In this document: piece after piece, positions 241 to 15,444 of the stretch | Layout of the letters: the number at the start of each line of letters is the position of its first letter | Position numbering within the stretch: position 1 is the first letter of the stretch | Assembly: GCF_040939785.1 (NCBI RefSeq) | Contig: NZ_CP162553.1 | Location: 2,790,001-2,854,000 of the forward strand | DNA length: 64,000 nt | From: Bradyrhizobium lupini | GTDB lineage: Bacteria > Pseudomonadota > Alphaproteobacteria > Rhizobiales > Xanthobacteraceae | Direction: 5' to 3' | Position numbers and translations under genes: made by a program | The notes under the pieces: model-generated | What the model saw: the letters and a program-made list of their open reading frames with translations, nothing else | Database searches by the model: none | What the model was told of the DNA's origin: nothing

Positions 241-837
241 CCGGGCCCGGCTCTCTTGCCGGCGAACCGGTTGCCCGAGCGCCAGTTACAGCATGCTGAG
301 AAACACGAGTATTTCTGACAGTGCTTTTCGCGCGCTACTGCGGAGCTCACGAAGACGCGATTGCTAGCTCTTGGAGCCTCGACGCAAGAGCGATCGAACA
401 AGCGGAATAAGAAAAGACCCAATCATCGAAGGCTCCTTGGGCTCGGACCACCGCGTCTGGGCTGAACGTACAGTTCGCCGGGCTCTGCGGCAGCCACTAC
501 AATCTGTGGGGAACCGAGGACGGCTCCTACGCACCCGCACCCGCACCCGCACCCGCACCCGCACCCGCACCCGCACCCGCACCCGCACCCGCACCCGATA
601 ACAAACTTACGCCGCCGCCACCCGCAAGTATTTTTACTCCGCTTTGCTTAGCATTTCTACTCTGGACTACGCGCCTCATCGCCAGGAATGCCCTCACGCA
701 CGCTGCGGCACTTGACGAATTTCATTTTCATTCGAAGCTGCCGAAGCCAGCATGAGGGACGCGTTGCGAGTAATCGCTGCGGCTTGGCCGTAGCGCAGCG
801 CGGAAATTTACGCTAGCTTCCGCTCGCGAGTTTGCAA
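241..837. other. Gene-poor stretch with a decayed reading frame and hexanucleotide repeat
   Basis: No intact gene is visible here. On the plus strand a frame opens after a TAA near 407 and runs without a clear start codon through WARTTASGLNVQFAGLCGS, then an alternating Ala-Pro tract from the repeat, then to a TGA near 754. Alanine-proline tracts are common linkers in rhizobial exported proteins, so this may be a gene fragment with its 5' end missing. I do not recognise the family. The RT-repeat reading of the same tract in other frames is a shadow. Confidence 0.4.
530..597. repeat. (CGCACC)n hexanucleotide tandem repeat
   Basis: About eleven perfect copies of a six-base unit (CGCACC or its rotation GCACCC). 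In the one frame that gives plausible protein the tract encodes alternating Ala-Pro; the other frames give Arg-Thr or its antisense. A perfect in-frame hexamer changes copy number by replication slippage without breaking the frame. Confidence 0.9.
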
Positions 838-1101
838 ATGCCTACCCGCATCCGATCTTTCCGAAGACAACGAGCGACCATTCGACCGCTTGCCCCCTCC
901 CATCCTCAGAGCTGGGATAATCCGGACAATGAGGAAATCTGGTTTGAGTTGGCGCGCGCCATCGGACGTCAGATCGCACGGGATGAACATCATGGCTCGG
1001 GGCAGCCGATAGAGGACCGGCATGACGGACCCGTCATCGAAGAAAACGGCCGTAATATACGCGCGCTATTCGAGCGACATGCAAAGGGTGAGCTCGATTG
1101 A
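838..1101 (+). CDS. Small conserved protein upstream of a serine recombinase
   Basis: The product is 87 residues from the ATG at 838 (a TTG lies two codons upstream). It starts with a basic segment (RIRSFRRQRATIRPL), has a central SWDNPDNEEIW...ELARAIGR stretch, and ends in a charged helix. I recall small proteins with this SWDNP/ELARAIGR pattern upstream of large serine recombinases in rhizobia, but cannot name a family or function. Its 3' end overlaps the recombinase start (1022) by about 80 bp in another frame, which suggests translational coupling. It could be a DNA-binding accessory factor of the recombinase; that is inference only. Confidence 0.6.
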   Translation: MPTRIRSFRRQRATIRPLAPSHPQSWDNPDNEEIWFELARAIGRQIARDEHHGSGQPIEDRHDGPVIEENGRNIRALFERHAKGELD

Positions 1102-2724
1102 CGGTCAGCTGTTACTCTGCCGCAAAGTCGCATTGCGCAACAACCTCGATGTCGTCGGCGAGTTTGTGGATGCCGCAAAATCTGGTCTTACCGAAGGTGC
1201 GCGGGACGGCTATCAGCGCTTGCTCAACGGTGTGCGAAGCCGGCAGTTTGACGTAGTCGTCGTTGAGCATTTCGACCGCTTGTCGCGCGATCCCGCAACC
1301 ATCCAGCGTCTCAAGCAGGTTTTCGAGTTCAACGGCGTTGAGCTGATGGATCAGAAAGGAGTCTACGCGACCGCCACTGACATTAGCATCGCAAGTCTGT
1401 ACAACACGATTTACAAGCCGCAGCTCGCCGAAAAGGTTCGGCGCGGCCATGACAACGCTGTTGCGAACGGAAGAATTCCGGGCTCATACGCCTATGGTTA
1501 TCGGCCGAGGCCGGGCGCGCCCGGCGAGCGCGTAATCGATGAGAACGAAGCAAAGATTGTGCTCCGCATCTTCAAAGAATATGCAGCGGGCCGCTCGACC
1601 CGAACTATCGCCGCTGACCTCACCCGCGAAGGCGTGCCCTCACCAGGGGCAACTCGTCACAAGAACAAGGCGGGTCGCACCACCTGGAACCATCAGTGCA
1701 TCACAGGCGGTCGGCATGGTCGCGGCATTATCGGCAACGAACTATACATCGGCGAGATACATTGGAACGTTCGCTCGACAATTCTTAACCCAGAGACGCA
1801 GAAGAAACAGAAGCGCTGCAATCCAGCAGAACGCCACATTATCGTCAAAAAGCCAGAGCTGCGGATCGTTCCGCAAGGGCTCTGGGATCTAGCGCAGAAG
1901 GTTCGTAGGGTGCGCGCGGTATCTATGTTCGGACCGACTGGCCAGCCGCGGCGTCGCGCCGTGAGTCCGCGCAACCATGAGCACCCGCTTGCCGGTGTGC
2001 TCCGGTGTGGCGTCTGCAATGGCCATATGCGAATCGCTCAATCCTCGCGTAACGGTGCGCCGCGCGCGGCATGCGCGAGCGCGCATCAGCGGGGCACCTG
2101 CGAGCACACCCGTAGCTTTGATATGGACGTTCTGCTCGAGGATGCCTCCGAAAAAATCAGGTGAAATTGCTTTCGCCGAAAGCCATTGAAGAGGCGATGC
2201 GTACTTGGAAGGAGGAGCGCAAAAACGATCGGAACAATGGCAGCGAACACAATAAGCTAGAGCGTCGACGCCGCGTATTGACTACCGAGATCGAACGCCT
2301 CTCTTATGCCATCGCAAATAGCCGCCGCAAGCCGGACGAATTGCTCAAGCGGATCGATGAGTGCGATCTGGAGCGGGAAAGCGTTGAAGAGCGCTTGCGG
2401 CTGCTGGGCGGTGGCGGCGAAAATTTAGTTGGCTTCGATCGCCCGAAATTCAGTGACCGATACTCCTCGGAGGTTAGAAGGCTTATCACCGCGCTCAAAA
2501 CCAATCCGAAGGCGATCGAAACTCGCATTGCCTTCCGCAACTTGATTGAATGCATAGTAGTGCATCCGGTTCGCAAGCGGATGCCCTACGAATATACGCC
2601 CTACCTGAACAGCTCCGCGCTTTACGGAAAGAACCTTTTTCCCGAAAACCGCAGCAAGGAGCGAGAGATCAGCACGTTTGCATACTACGACAATGGCAAG
2701 CCAGGGAAATCCGTGTCCTCGTAA
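1022..2724 (+). pseudogene. Large serine recombinase, split by a frameshift
   Basis: Two adjacent frames make one large serine recombinase. Part one (1022-2164, 380 aa) has the resolvase domain with the nucleophile motif YARYSSDMQ near residue 14, a recombinase domain around residues 150-260, and a zinc-ribbon (LRCGVCNG ... CASAHQRGTC). It stops at a TGA at 2162-2164. Part two (2161-2724, 187 aa, GTG start overlapping that stop as GTGA) supplies the usual C-terminal coiled-coil and tail (KLLSPKAIEEAMRTWKEER). Members of this family carry both parts in one chain of about 550 residues. The shift lies just after a run of six A (about 2150-2156). The last codons and the TAA at 2722 lie inside sequence belonging to ybgC, as expected for an integrase gene next to its own attachment site. 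Confidence 0.85.
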
Positions 2725-2786
2725 TAGACGCGGACCTGCATATGGTGGCGGCCGTCGCGGATCTCGCCGTCGAGATGAGCTGTCAC
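2686..2786 (-). pseudogene. ybgC: YbgC acyl-CoA thioesterase, 5' fragment truncated by integration
   Basis: From a GTG at 2786 the minus strand reads VTAHLDGEIRDGRHH then MQVRVYYEDTDF, the N-terminus of the Tol-Pal-associated hot-dog thioesterase YbgC; the YEDTDF motif includes the catalytic Asp. Soon after, the frame leaves the family sequence and stops. Intact YbgC is about 130-150 residues, so roughly three quarters is missing. In alphaproteobacteria ybgC commonly follows ruvB and precedes tolQ, which fits its place here. The remaining ybgC and the tol-pal genes are expected at the other end of the inserted element, outside the window. A functional gene may have been rebuilt there if the element carries a replacement 5' end. 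Confidence 0.7.
2698..2722. other. Putative attachment site (element/ybgC junction)
   Basis: The ybgC reading frame (minus strand) matches the family through VYYEDTDF and then departs into a short PGLPLS tail and stop, where the family continues with SGIVYHANY. The recombinase frame on the plus strand ends within the same bases (KSVSS then TAA). The crossover core should therefore lie in this ~25 bp. The exact core cannot be fixed without the other junction or an empty site. Confidence 0.6.
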
Positions 2787-2856
2787 GTCGCGAGCCTCTT
2801 CGCTTTTTCGGTAACCAGCCCGTTTTGCGCAAAAACGGCCGGCTGCGCAAGCGCGG

Positions 2857-3773
2857 CTAGACCACCGCCGGCCCACGCCCCAGCGTCACCTCGACGATCT
2901 CCGGCGGCACGCCGACGCGGAGCGGCATGATGCTGCAACCGAGGCCGCCGGAGATGATGACGTCGCATTTGAGCCGGACATGGCCATAGGCGAGCCGGAG
3001 GCCGTGCTGTGGCGGAACCGCCGGCGACCAACCGAGCAGGCGGACCTGGCCGCCATGAGTGTGGCCGGACAGTTGCAGCGCGATGCGGGCGGGCACGCGC
3101 GGCGCGATATTGGGCTCATGCGCGAGCAGGATGATCGGCGCGTCGTCGGTGACCTTGGCAAGCGTCGCGTCGAGATCGTCGGCGCCGAAGCGTCCCGTGC
3201 TCGGAAGCGTCGCGCCGGCAGAAAGGCGAGTTGATCGCCAAGGCCGGCGAGCCAGAATGCACGGCCATCCTTGGCGAGCCGCACGACGTCGTTCTCGTAG
3301 ACGGGAATGCCGGCCGTCTCCAGCGCGCGATGCGCGACCGTCGGCCCGTGTCCAGCCTGCTGGACGATCCTGTCCGCCCAATAGTCATGGTTGCCCATGA
3401 CGGCATGGACGCCGAGCGGCGCTTTCAGGCCGGCCAGCACCTTGGCCCATTCGCTCGCCGGAATGATGCGCGTGACCTGGTGCAGACCGGCAACATAGTC
3501 GCCGAGCAGCACGATGATATCCGCATTCAGCGCATTGGTGCGATCGACGATGGCTTCGATCCGCTCCAGCGACATCCAGGGATCGCAGGCATGGATGTCG
3601 GCGATCACGGCGATCTTCAGCGGGAAATCCGCCGGCCATTGCCGCGGGGTTGGATGATAGCGGGTGACGCGAAGCCGCAGCACCGGCTCGACGCCGACGC
3701 CATAGGCCGCGGTCGATGCGCCGAGGGCGGACAGTCCGCCGATGGAACGGATGAGGTGACGGCGCGTGATCAT
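2857..3773 (-). pseudogene. Calcineurin-like metallophosphoesterase with a frameshift
   Basis: The N-terminal half (from ATG 3773) has a twin-arginine-type leader (TRRHLIRSIGGLSALG) and the metal-binding motifs DIHACD, GDYV and GNHDYW. The C-terminal half lies in another frame, ending at 2857, and carries the GHTHGGQ motif followed by ISGGLGCSIMPLRVGVPPE. The two halves join naturally near 3195-3215, where FLPARRF in one frame should pass to GADDLDATLAKV in the other. Read literally, the first frame runs on as arginine/serine-rich nonsense to 2886. Intact, this would be an exported or membrane-attached phosphoesterase of about 300 residues, of the type acting on phosphodiesters or UDP-sugar lipids. 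It sits between ruvB and the disrupted ybgC. The frameshift may be real decay or a sequence error. Confidence 0.8.
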
Positions 3774-3901
3774 GGCAGCCTGATCGTGATGCAGCTTGTT
3801 GATGCGACCCTATTGAAGCGGAAATGGGGTGCTTTTGTGCAGACCCTCTGCACGAAATCACCGGAAATTCATGACGGCCCGACCGTCCGTACTTGCGCAG
3901 A

Positions 3902-4960
3902 TCAGTCGTCGCTCTCGTCGGTGCCGAACAGGCCGAACTGTGCCGCCGCATCGCGCGATGGCTCGCTGATGCCGAGATGGCGAAAGGCGTGCGAGGTGAG
4001 CAGGCGGCCGCGCGGAGTGCGCTGCAGATAGCCGCACTGGATCAGATAGGGCTCGATGATGTCTTCGATCGCATCGCGCGGCTCCGACAGAGCGGCGGCC
4101 ATCGTCTCGACGCCGACCGGGCCGCCGCCATAGTTCTGCGCGATGGTCGTGAGGTAACGGCGGTCCATCGCGTCGAGGCCGGCGGCATCGACCTCGAGCG
4201 CGCTCAGCGCGTGGTCGGCAATCTTGCGATCGATCCTGTCGGCATCGGCCGCCGAAGCAAAATCGCGCACGCGGCGCAGCAGCCGGCCGGCGATACGCGG
4301 CGTGCCACGCGCGCGTCGCGCGATCTCGTTGGCGCCATCCGCGCTCATGCCGACGTTGAGCACGCGGGCACCACGGGTGACAATGCTTTCCAGCTCCTCG
4401 ATGGTGTAGAAATTCAACCGGACCGGAATGCCGAAGCGGTCGCGCAAGGGATTGGTGAGCAGGCCGGCGCGGGTAGTGGCGCCGACGAGGGTGAATTTCG
4501 ACAGCTCGATCTTCACCGAGCGCGCCGCCGGACCCTCGCCGATGATGAGGTCGAGCTGGAAATCCTCCATCGCGGGATAGAGCACTTCTTCCACCGCCGG
4601 GCTCAGGCGATGGATCTCGTCGATGAACAGCACATCGCGCTCTTCGAGATTGGTGAGCAGCGCGGCGAGATCGCCGGCCTTGGCGATCACCGGGCCTGAT
4701 GTCGCGCGAAAGCCGACGCCGAGTTCCTTGGCCACGATCTGCGCCAGCGTGGTCTTGCCGAGGCCGGGGGGACCGACGAACAGCACGTGATCCAGCGCCT
4801 CGCCGCGCTTGCGCGCCGCCTCGATGAAGATGGACAGATTCTTGCGCGCCTGCTGCTGGCCGACGAAGTCGGACAGCGATTGCGGACGCAGCGCAGTGTC
4901 GCCGACATCGTCGCTGCGGCGCTCGGGCGTGACCATGCGGTTGGCCTTAGGATCGCTCAC
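3902..4960 (-). CDS. ruvB: Holliday junction branch migration ATPase RuvB
   Basis: The product is 352 residues, normal for RuvB. It is the AAA+ motor that drives branch migration of Holliday junctions together with RuvA. The Walker A motif GPPGLGKT, Walker B FIDEIHR, sensor I GATTRAG and the C-terminal winged-helix region ([12 protein letters not shown]) are all present. Its ATG overlaps the ruvA stop by 4 bp, so ruvC-ruvA-ruvB are translated as a coupled operon on the minus strand. Confidence 0.98.
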
Positions 4961-5574
4961 TTCGCGAGCTCCTTCAGGCCAAGGCGAATGAGCTGCGCGG
5001 TCTCCGCATTCTCACCCGCGCTGCGCGATGCAGATGCAATGGCCGCGGCAGCTTGCGGCTGGCCGTAGCCGAGATTGACCAGCGCGGAGATCGCGTCCGC
5101 CACGGGCCGTGGCGCGCGCTGGTCGTCGACGGCGCCGGCGAGGTGCACGACCGCCGGATCGACATTGGCAAAGGCCGGCGCCTTGTCCTTCAACTCGGTG
5201 ACGATGCGCTCTGCGACTTTGGGGCCGACACCCGGCGTGCGCGCCACTGCAGCCTTGTCGCGCAACGCGATCGCGTTGGCGAGGTCGGACGGCCCAAGCG
5301 TGCCGAGCACAGCGAGCGCGACCTTGGCGCCGACGCCCTGCACGGTCTGAAGCAGGCGAAACCATTCGCGCTCCTGGTCGCTGCGGAAGCCGAACAGCTT
5401 GATCTGATCCTCGCGAACATAGGTCTCGATCGACAGCACGGCGGCCTCGCCCGGCGAGGGCAGATGCTGCAGCGTGCGCGTCGAGCAATGCACCTGATAA
5501 CCGACCCCGCCGACGTCGAGGATGACGAAATCCTCGCCGTAGGAATCGATCAGGCCCTTGAGCTTGCCGATCAT
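4957..5574 (-). CDS. ruvA: Holliday junction DNA-binding protein RuvA
   Basis: The product is 205 residues. The N-terminal OB-fold ([16 protein letters not shown]) is followed by two helix-hairpin-helix segments ([13 protein letters not shown] and [14 protein letters not shown]) and a C-terminal RuvB-contacting domain ([12 protein letters not shown]). It binds the four-way junction as a tetramer and loads RuvB. It overlaps ruvC and ruvB by 4 bp on each side, typical of a tightly coupled operon. Confidence 0.98.
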
Positions 5575-6098
5575 AAGCCTGCCACCTTCAGCCGCAGCGC
5601 GGTGCTCTGGCGATGATGGGCATGGGTGATGGCGATGGCGAGCGCGTCGGCGGCGTCCGCGGACGGCGGATCGGCCTTCGGCAGCAAAATCTTGAGCATC
5701 ATCGCGATCTGCTGCTTGTCGGCGTGGCCGGCGCCGACCACCGTCTTCTTCACCTGGTTCGGCGCGTATTCGGCAACACTGATGCCGAACATCGCAGGCG
5801 CGAGCATGGCGACGCCGCGGGCCTGGCCGAGCTTCAGCGTCGCGACGCCGTCCTTATTGACGAAAGTCTGCTCGACCGCGGCTTCCATCGGCTTGTGACT
5901 GGACAGGACGGCGGCCAGCCCCTCATGGATCGCGAGCAGCCGGCTCGCCAGCGGCAAATCGTCCGGCGGCTCCACCGAGCCGCAGGCGACGTAGATCAGG
6001 CGGTTGCCCTCGGCCTCGATCACGCCCCAGCCGGTGCGGCGCAGGCCAGGGTCGATGCCGATGATGCGAACGGGGCCACGAATCGGGAGCGTCGTCAT
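5571..6098 (-). CDS. ruvC: Crossover junction endodeoxyribonuclease RuvC
   Basis: The product is 175 residues, the usual length. It resolves Holliday junctions by symmetric cleavage. The acidic catalytic residues are visible in [22 protein letters not shown] and [14 protein letters not shown]. It is the first gene of the ruvCAB operon and lies about 70 bp downstream of the yebC-type gene on the same strand. Confidence 0.98.
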
Positions 6099-14590: not shown

Positions 14591-14979
14591 GCCTGCGTCT
14601 ACCAGCGTCGCTGCCCTCTCCCACAAGGGGAGAGGGCACAACAATGAGTCGCGGCAATTGATCGCGCCGTCGATCGACTTCCACAATCGCACGACTTTCG
14701 TCATCGCATGATTTTGCGCATTCGCACGATCATCTGTGGCCATCAATGACGCTTGTGAGCAAAATGCGTTAGAAAATGACGATTATCATATCAATTAGCC
14801 CAAAATTACTGCAGTGATCGCCGCACAAATTCGTGAACGTCATGGCCTGACGCGCTCACTGCGCAAAAATGCATTGCCGGACATGTCGACGCTTCATCGT
14901 TTCGCATCGATATGATTATTGTGCGCGCAAATTCGCTGACTAGATCGCCGCAAGCGATCGAGCGAGCAAGGGGATGCAT
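14591..14979. other. Intergenic region, AT-richer promoter side of iorA
   Basis: It starts with a short palindrome (see 14613-14637). From about 14690 to 14960 the sequence is clearly richer in A+T than its surroundings and has no gene. It probably holds the promoter and regulator binding sites of the hydroxylase operon. I could not identify a specific operator. Confidence 0.5.
14613..14637. repeat. CTCTCCC-type short palindrome
   Basis: GCCCTCTCCC and GGGAGAGGGC-type arms surround a short ACAAG loop. The same kind of palindrome recurs at 18992, 19112, 27627 and 27706, always between genes. It is a dispersed intergenic element of the genome. Confidence 0.7.
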
Positions 14980-15444
14980 ATGGCAACTGTTCTCACCATC
15001 AACGGCGAAACGAAATCGTTCGACGCGCCACCTGACATGCCGCTGCTGTGGGTGCTGCGCGACGTCCTTGGGATGACCGGCACCAAGTTCGGCTGCGGCA
15101 TTGCGCAGTGTGGCGCCTGCACCGTGCACGTCGACGGCAAGGCAGTCCGCTCCTGCGTCTTGCCGGTCAGCGCGGTCGCGAACCGCGCCATCACCACGAT
15201 CGAGCATGTCGGCAGCACGCCAGCGGGCGCAAAGGTGCAGAAGGCCTGGCTCGATGCCGAAGTGATCCAGTGCGGCTACTGCCAGTCCGGCCAGATCATG
15301 TCGGCCGCGGCACTGCTGGCGGCAACGCCCAGCCCTGACGATTCCGACATCGACGCCGCGATGGCCGGCAACATCTGCCGCTGCGGCACCTATGTGCGCA
15401 TCCGCGAGGCCATCAAGCAAGCCGCCTCCGGCCGTCAGTCGTGA
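14980..15444 (+). CDS. iorA: Molybdenum hydroxylase small subunit, (2Fe-2S) (IorA-type)
   Basis: The ATG at 14980 is spaced from AAGGGG; an ATG two codons upstream is too close to it. The product is 154 residues. The plant-type [2Fe-2S] cysteines are in [13 protein letters not shown], and the second cluster ligands in [11 protein letters not shown] and [12 protein letters not shown]. It passes electrons from the molybdopterin subunit encoded next. Names in this family (isoquinoline 1-oxidoreductase, aldehyde oxidase) are interchangeable without biochemical data, so the substrate is unknown. It forms an operon with the next two genes. Confidence 0.85.

Follow-up and report, generated by a model that had tools for sequence, protein, structure and literature searches.

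A native ybgC interrupted at the probable attachment end of a bipartite tRNA-Val symbiosis element that carries its own ybgC in Bradyrhizobium lupini

The IntY end and the interrupted native ybgC

The window analysed here is a 64,000-nucleotide stretch of Bradyrhizobium lupini DNA, positions 2790001-2854000 of a genome (G000) that is assembled as a single 7.83-Mb contig. Its left end holds a recombinase gene that runs into a truncated ybgC, followed by chromosomal genes. In window coordinates the features are:

1-2706: IntY end of the A part of the element, which extends left to a tRNA-Val (~528 kb)
832-1101, plus strand: small ORF overlapping the start of IntY, no Pfam match
1022-2164, plus strand: first part of the large serine recombinase IntY (Pfam PF00239 7e-25, PF07508 1e-17, PF13408 4e-8)
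2161-2724, plus strand: C-terminal part of IntY in a second frame (a single frame here in aligned relatives)
2707-2708, minus strand: predicted crossover core TT, at which the native ybgC 5' part is joined in 37 of 42 distinct junction segments
2709-2786, minus strand: native ybgC 5' part, 26 codons from GTG, 87-96% identical to six aligned empty-site genes
2787-6098, minus strand: chromosomal flank (2708-6000 matches next to ybgC in empty-site relatives)
~2886-3773, minus strand: metallophosphoesterase ORF with a Metallophos domain
3902-4960, 4957-5574 and 5571-6098, minus strand: ruvB, ruvA and ruvC (gene names by reading)

The native ybgC is broken at 2707-2708 on the minus strand, and TT is the point at which it departs from its family. 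From 2786 to 2709 the minus strand reads as the opening 26 codons of ybgC (VTAHLDGEIRDGRHHMQVRVYYEDTD), ending ...YYEDTD, and in alignments with empty-site relatives the gene reads on uninterrupted from the same base. An earlier sequence-only reading of this DNA had seen ybgC start normally on the minus strand and depart after YEDTDF, a plus-strand serine recombinase end at the break, and ruv genes lie to the right. Each point holds: the fragment has 26 codons and breaks at TT 2708-2707, IntY ends at 2724 with its stop inside the ybgC part, and ruvB, ruvA and ruvC, named by reading, follow. That a mobile element had entered ybgC by way of a large serine recombinase, as in rhizobial ICEs, was also correct. 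The same reading expected tolQRAB-pal as the other neighbour. In the one empty-site ORF list for this locus (L072), ybgC is followed instead by ORFs read as NTF2-like, glutamine-amidotransferase-like and a LysR regulator (names by reading); tolQRAB-pal is not among them, and we rejected linkage of the ybgC locus to tolQ on that list.

The first part of IntY contains the resolvase, recombinase and zinc-ribbon domains of a large serine recombinase and is the sole PF07508 match in the genome. The end of the gene crosses the junction such that its final codons and stop lie within the ybgC 5' part, and the last IntY codons are thus supplied by host DNA, with ybgC read antisense. Integration thereby alters the IntY C-terminus (2709-2724); in the circular element the frame would continue through attP.

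The sequence-only reading missed a break at ~2160 that divides the recombinase between two frames. IntY reads as a single open frame at 34 further loci, among which some genomes are represented twice, and a few other loci are damaged elsewhere (L076, L194, L230, L234-L236). Programmed frameshifting was considered and rejected, since aligned relatives read through in one frame. The neighbouring metallophosphoesterase ORF shows a single-base loss at ~3202 relative to G144, G073 and other relatives, possibly an assembly error, and the completeness of G000 is 96.8%, compared with 99-100% for most listed relatives. A one-base loss in a neighbouring gene too indicates that the IntY frameshift is either recent decay or an assembly indel error. 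Because IntY is frameshifted in G000, this part of the element may be fixed in place here.

Sequence similar to the small ORF at 832-1101 adjoins IntY in 23 of 24 loci, split over two matches in six of them; it is possibly a recombination directionality factor. Further left lie a remnant of a Mutator-family transposase (1-240; PF00872, at cut-off) and a run of GCACCC-type hexamers (~530-600).

The missing half of ybgC and the two-part element

The sequence-only reading had proposed a search for the second ybgC part in the same genome and an alignment of both junctions to empty-site relatives. A ybgC HMM search of G000 returned four places, two of them relevant: 5048700-5049143 and an ORF at 5057274. 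The latter has no start, opens at ...SGIVYHANYLRF and contains the missing part. The features outside the window, in G000 coordinates, are:

2264208-2264282: complete tRNA-Val (CAC), left end of the A part
5022082-5023461: tyrosine integrase, 459 aa, beside the 47-bp tRNA-Val repeat in the B part
5048700-5049143: intact, full-length element ybgC, in the B part
5057277-5057648: native ybgC 3' part, whose match to empty-site ybgC starts at the core TT (5057277-5057278)

The window flank of G000 and its flank at 5.057 Mb are contiguous in three empty-site relatives (L072, L073 and L212), where they meet at the TT core, and joining the two G000 halves at TT restores a full-length YbgC reading. The remainder of ybgC does exist in the genome; it lies beside the B part, and not in line with the 5' part as expected, being 2.26 Mb away across an inversion.

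The A part runs from the tRNA-Val to the ybgC 5' part. G+C is mostly 0.56-0.63 across 2.27-2.79 Mb, compared with 0.63-0.66 in most flanking 20-kb steps, and both nodA (2394730) and nifH (2716832) lie inside. Left of the native 3' half, G+C is low down to about 5.02 Mb, where the 47-bp end of the tRNA-Val recurs in inverse orientation (2264238-2264284 and 5021756-5021802). From this repeat to the native 3' half the B part measures ~35.5 kb. The tRNA-Val flanks are contiguous in three empty-site relatives (L209, L210 and L211), and the ~2.23 Mb of chromosome between the parts is inverted with respect to such relatives. Contiguous flanks at the empty sites, together with the inverse orientation of the repeats, indicate that the A and B parts bound an inverted stretch of chromosome.

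A monopartite element, that is one simple insertion with the rest of ybgC directly past its left end, would be consistent with the recombinase at the junction and the low-GC region leftward of it, but what lies at that left end is the tRNA-Val, complete, at 2264208; the rest of native ybgC sits far off, next to a second element part that has the other tRNA-Val repeat. In a one-contig genome, such placement of the two ybgC halves refutes this highly improbable reading. Misassembly of halves that are truly adjacent in the chromosome is hardly conceivable. G000 does carry signs of indel error, in its completeness and in single-base losses in two neighbouring genes, but a match spanning the junction (query start at most 67, end at least 170) occurs in 35 other genomes of the genus, and the separate assemblies G144 and G005 have the identical set of two-part landmarks.

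The two-part organization corresponds to the bipartite tRNA-Val symICE of Bradyrhizobium described, in the portions available of both papers, by Weisberg, Sachs and Chang 2022 (PMC9174649) and Weisberg et al. 2022 (PMC9239051). G000 has a large part that contains nod and nif genes and has tRNA-Val at its border, a small part at ybgC with the partner tRNA-Val repeat and an integrase, and an inversion between the sites relative to empty-site strains; its element is of the published type. The excerpts of those papers likewise place the large part at tRNA-Val and the small part at ybgC, with an integrase at the att site of each part and the intervening chromosome inverted. They state ~0.05 Mb for the small part, compared with ~35 kb for the B part in G000, and the frameshifted IntY of G000 is unlike the published element. 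Similarly, a 45-bp trnV copy was reported in 2011 for B. japonicum USDA6T and USDA110 (PMC3927601, in excerpt), whose islands A and B resemble G000 in having the trnV copy beside an integrase and megabases from the main island. Symbiosis island B is bordered by an integrase gene and ybgC in the excerpt of PMC11218460, a further resemblance to G000.

We conclude that a bipartite tRNA-Val symICE with its own complete ybgC very probably has its IntY attachment end at the junction in the window. Following the published model, the circular ICE would enter at tRNA-Val through IntV or at ybgC through IntY. Recombination at the second pair of sites would then invert the intervening chromosome, with the result that an A part extends from tRNA-Val to the ybgC 5' part and a B part from the tRNA-Val repeat to the ybgC 3' part.

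The scattered integrated form has a parallel in the tripartite ICEs of Mesorhizobium, for which Haskett and colleagues reportedly described, in 2016, several integrases and att pairs that give rise to such a form. Those elements have three parts and other targets, whereas the G000 element has two.

The element-borne ybgC

The intact gene at 5048700-5049143 scores 146 bits against the family HMM TIGR02799 (curated cut-off 141.35), which places it in the YbgC thioesterase family. Our scan of the genus covered 265 genomes, with junction matches listed down to E ~1e-26 so that weaker ones may be missed, and found the junction-spanning match in at least 36 of them, G000 included. An element-type ybgC, defined by at least 80% DNA identity over at least 300 bases, is present in 35 of these 36 listed junction genomes and in 21 of the remaining 229 (Fisher p 7e-28, with relatedness not corrected). 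The 36th, G245, has a diverged element copy with 73% protein identity; counting it, all 36 listed junction genomes have a full-length element ybgC. Outside the 36, the same site in G028 is occupied by a diverged IntY (47%), and a 67-68% ybgC copy lies ~0.5 kb from the native 3' part in the opposite orientation; G077 has the native 5' part at a contig end and element-type ybgC only as pieces at contig ends.

The position of the copy varies. Flanks were read in 31 junction genomes, many to only 1.5 kb. In 16 of these the native 3' part follows 66-307 bp after the end of the element copy, or of one copy where there are two; in the other 15 no copy was seen next to it. A distance of 8.1 kb separates the intact copy of G000 from the core, which has a second 3' remnant beside it. 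Seven genomes (G223, G083, G284, G084, G170, G085 and G081) have two element copies 4.8-11.5 kb apart. IntY and element ybgC adjoin within ~3 kb in L199 8400-11700 (G154) and in L200 (G239), unlike the usual order of the B part.

A tree of 82 YbgC proteins groups the element copies into one clade (34 rows, support 100/98), sister to native Bradyrhizobium YbgC, to which their overall identity is only ~68%; the G245 and G028 copies are sister to the element clade (99/93). Across 30 loci, no stop or gap was found in the copy in any of the 24 junction genomes read, while three of six copies from other genomes are broken. By a crude method the median pairwise omega is 0.137 (37 sequences, 644 pairs), in a set restricted to full-length, stop-free copies. 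An omega of ~0.14 indicates that the stop-free element copies are under purifying selection.

The sequence-only reading had offered two outcomes, a ybgC regenerated by the element or one lost. Neither applies: the host's own gene remains interrupted, and a full-length ybgC from a separate lineage is present on the element. Simple loss of ybgC function in these strains is very unlikely: the native gene is indeed cut, and its 3' remnant lacks the first 26 codons, but the element copy is intact in 24 of 24 junction genomes read, with omega ~0.14. We infer instead that the element copy assumes the role of YbgC thioesterase. An intact ybgC in the annotation of such a strain is hence not to be equated with the native gene.

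Crossover codons and a possible role for the replacement copy

The 42 distinct IntY junction segments point to TT as the crossover core. The five that are not joined there to the native 5' part comprise an element-type ybgC with TC (L233/L237), unrelated sites in L230 and L194, and two attP-like joins (the L235 group and L236). In the seven genomes with both arms, the reconstructed attP arms are mirrored in silico about TT, the central dinucleotide common to attB, at 10-17 of 18 positions, as in the attachment sites of large serine recombinases; in G000 the attP arms are mirrored at 10 of 18 positions and the attB arms at 8 of 18.

Forty-nine of 140 columns are conserved at 85% or more in 25 native and 28 order-level sequences (one of the 28 from the same genus), and at four of the 49 (F28, S29, G30 and Y37) the native residue is absent from all main-clade element copies. 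F28, S29 and G30 correspond to the crossover codon and the two codons that follow it, with S/A, G and Q/K in the element. If columns were independent, the chance of this pattern would be 2.2e-4 (46/C(49,4), for 4 of 49 columns); the changed codons are adjacent, and taken as one local event their chance of striking the crossover is a few percent by our own estimate. At the DNA level the crossover codon is TCN or GCN in 28 of 28 distinct element variants, compared with TTY in 23 of 23 native variants. The G245 and G028 copies keep TTC, followed by AGC-CAG and AGC-AAG, respectively, where natives have TCN-GGN. A claim that the TT core is missing from every element copy was accordingly rejected and limited to the main clade. 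Judged from their sequences, all examined copies depart from attB, either in the core or immediately next to it.

The changes in the crossover codons may stop IntY from using the element copy as a target. Since loss of TT is not universal among element copies, immunity to IntY is something we infer. In Bradyrhizobium sp. 139 an IntY element lies inside an element-type ybgC with a TC in place of a TT junction (L233 7560-7800, equivalent to G013:C143 ~14896-15000), which we read as a sister element targeting the replacement gene, so the copies are not beyond the reach of all relatives.

These observations lead us to propose, tentatively and as plausible though short of probable, an 'insert and rescue' device in this symICE family: the integrase would destroy the host ybgC while the element supplies a functional ybgC with non-matching crossover codons, such that the carrier survives, the element's own copy is left uncut and no further IntY element can use the site. 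If so, the tandem copies and the TC junction of strain 139 would mark a contest over the site.

Alternatively, the element ybgC could be a passenger from an old imprecise excision, its crossover differences reflecting drift or functional change and not protection, which we consider somewhat doubtful. An overall identity to native YbgC of only ~68%, the adjacency of the three changed codons (maybe one local event, for which an estimate of a few percent replaces 2e-4) and the TT kept by the sister copies would suit a passenger. Purifying selection among stop-free copies argues against it, as do the presence of the copy in the 36 junction genomes, its location next to the native 3' part in 16 of the 31 genomes read, and the fact that the same three codons differ in the diverged sister copies too.

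Some elements restore the end of the gene that they target, be it the 3' end of a tRNA or a coding gene. The symICE described here would resemble them in compensating for integration damage; it differs in that a whole, separately evolving gene is brought in and the native gene is left broken. What appears to be new here is an element-borne replacement for a broken target gene that is apparently maintained by selection and has changes in or next to the crossover. The portions available of PMC9174649 and PMC9239051 make no mention of an element-borne ybgC, its selection or altered crossover codons, nor do they address why a mega-element can break a conserved coding gene; those of PMC3927601 and PMC11218460 do not describe the island B ybgC as the element's own stand-in for the broken host gene. 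Literature searches at title level turned up no title on mobile elements that bring a substitute for their target gene. A replacement copy changed at or beside the crossover would explain how a mega-element affords to break a conserved coding gene. Were the copy to complement and be immune to IntY, it would be the equivalent in nature of rescue copies made by engineering and, if the proposal is true, could shed light on which chromosomes are able to accept bipartite symbiosis elements.

Several loci depart from the usual junction. In G105, probably USDA6T since the island coordinates match, an element arm is joined in reverse to the native ybgC 5' part (L208 6560-7000) and the reading frame of IntY continues into that of the native 3' part (L288), joins that we interpret as both products of a wrong-way crossover at the same TT core. 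USDA6 is termed locked in in the excerpt of PMC9239051. The non-ybgC sites beside IntY in L230 and L194 are secondary targets or rearranged ends. In L234/L235 and L236 the left attP arm adjoins IntY without the palindromic centre, giving a dead attP. Finally, in G015 (L084 ~10165) the native ybgC is cut near the same point and gives way to unrelated DNA; an element-type ybgC lies 17.7 kb away.
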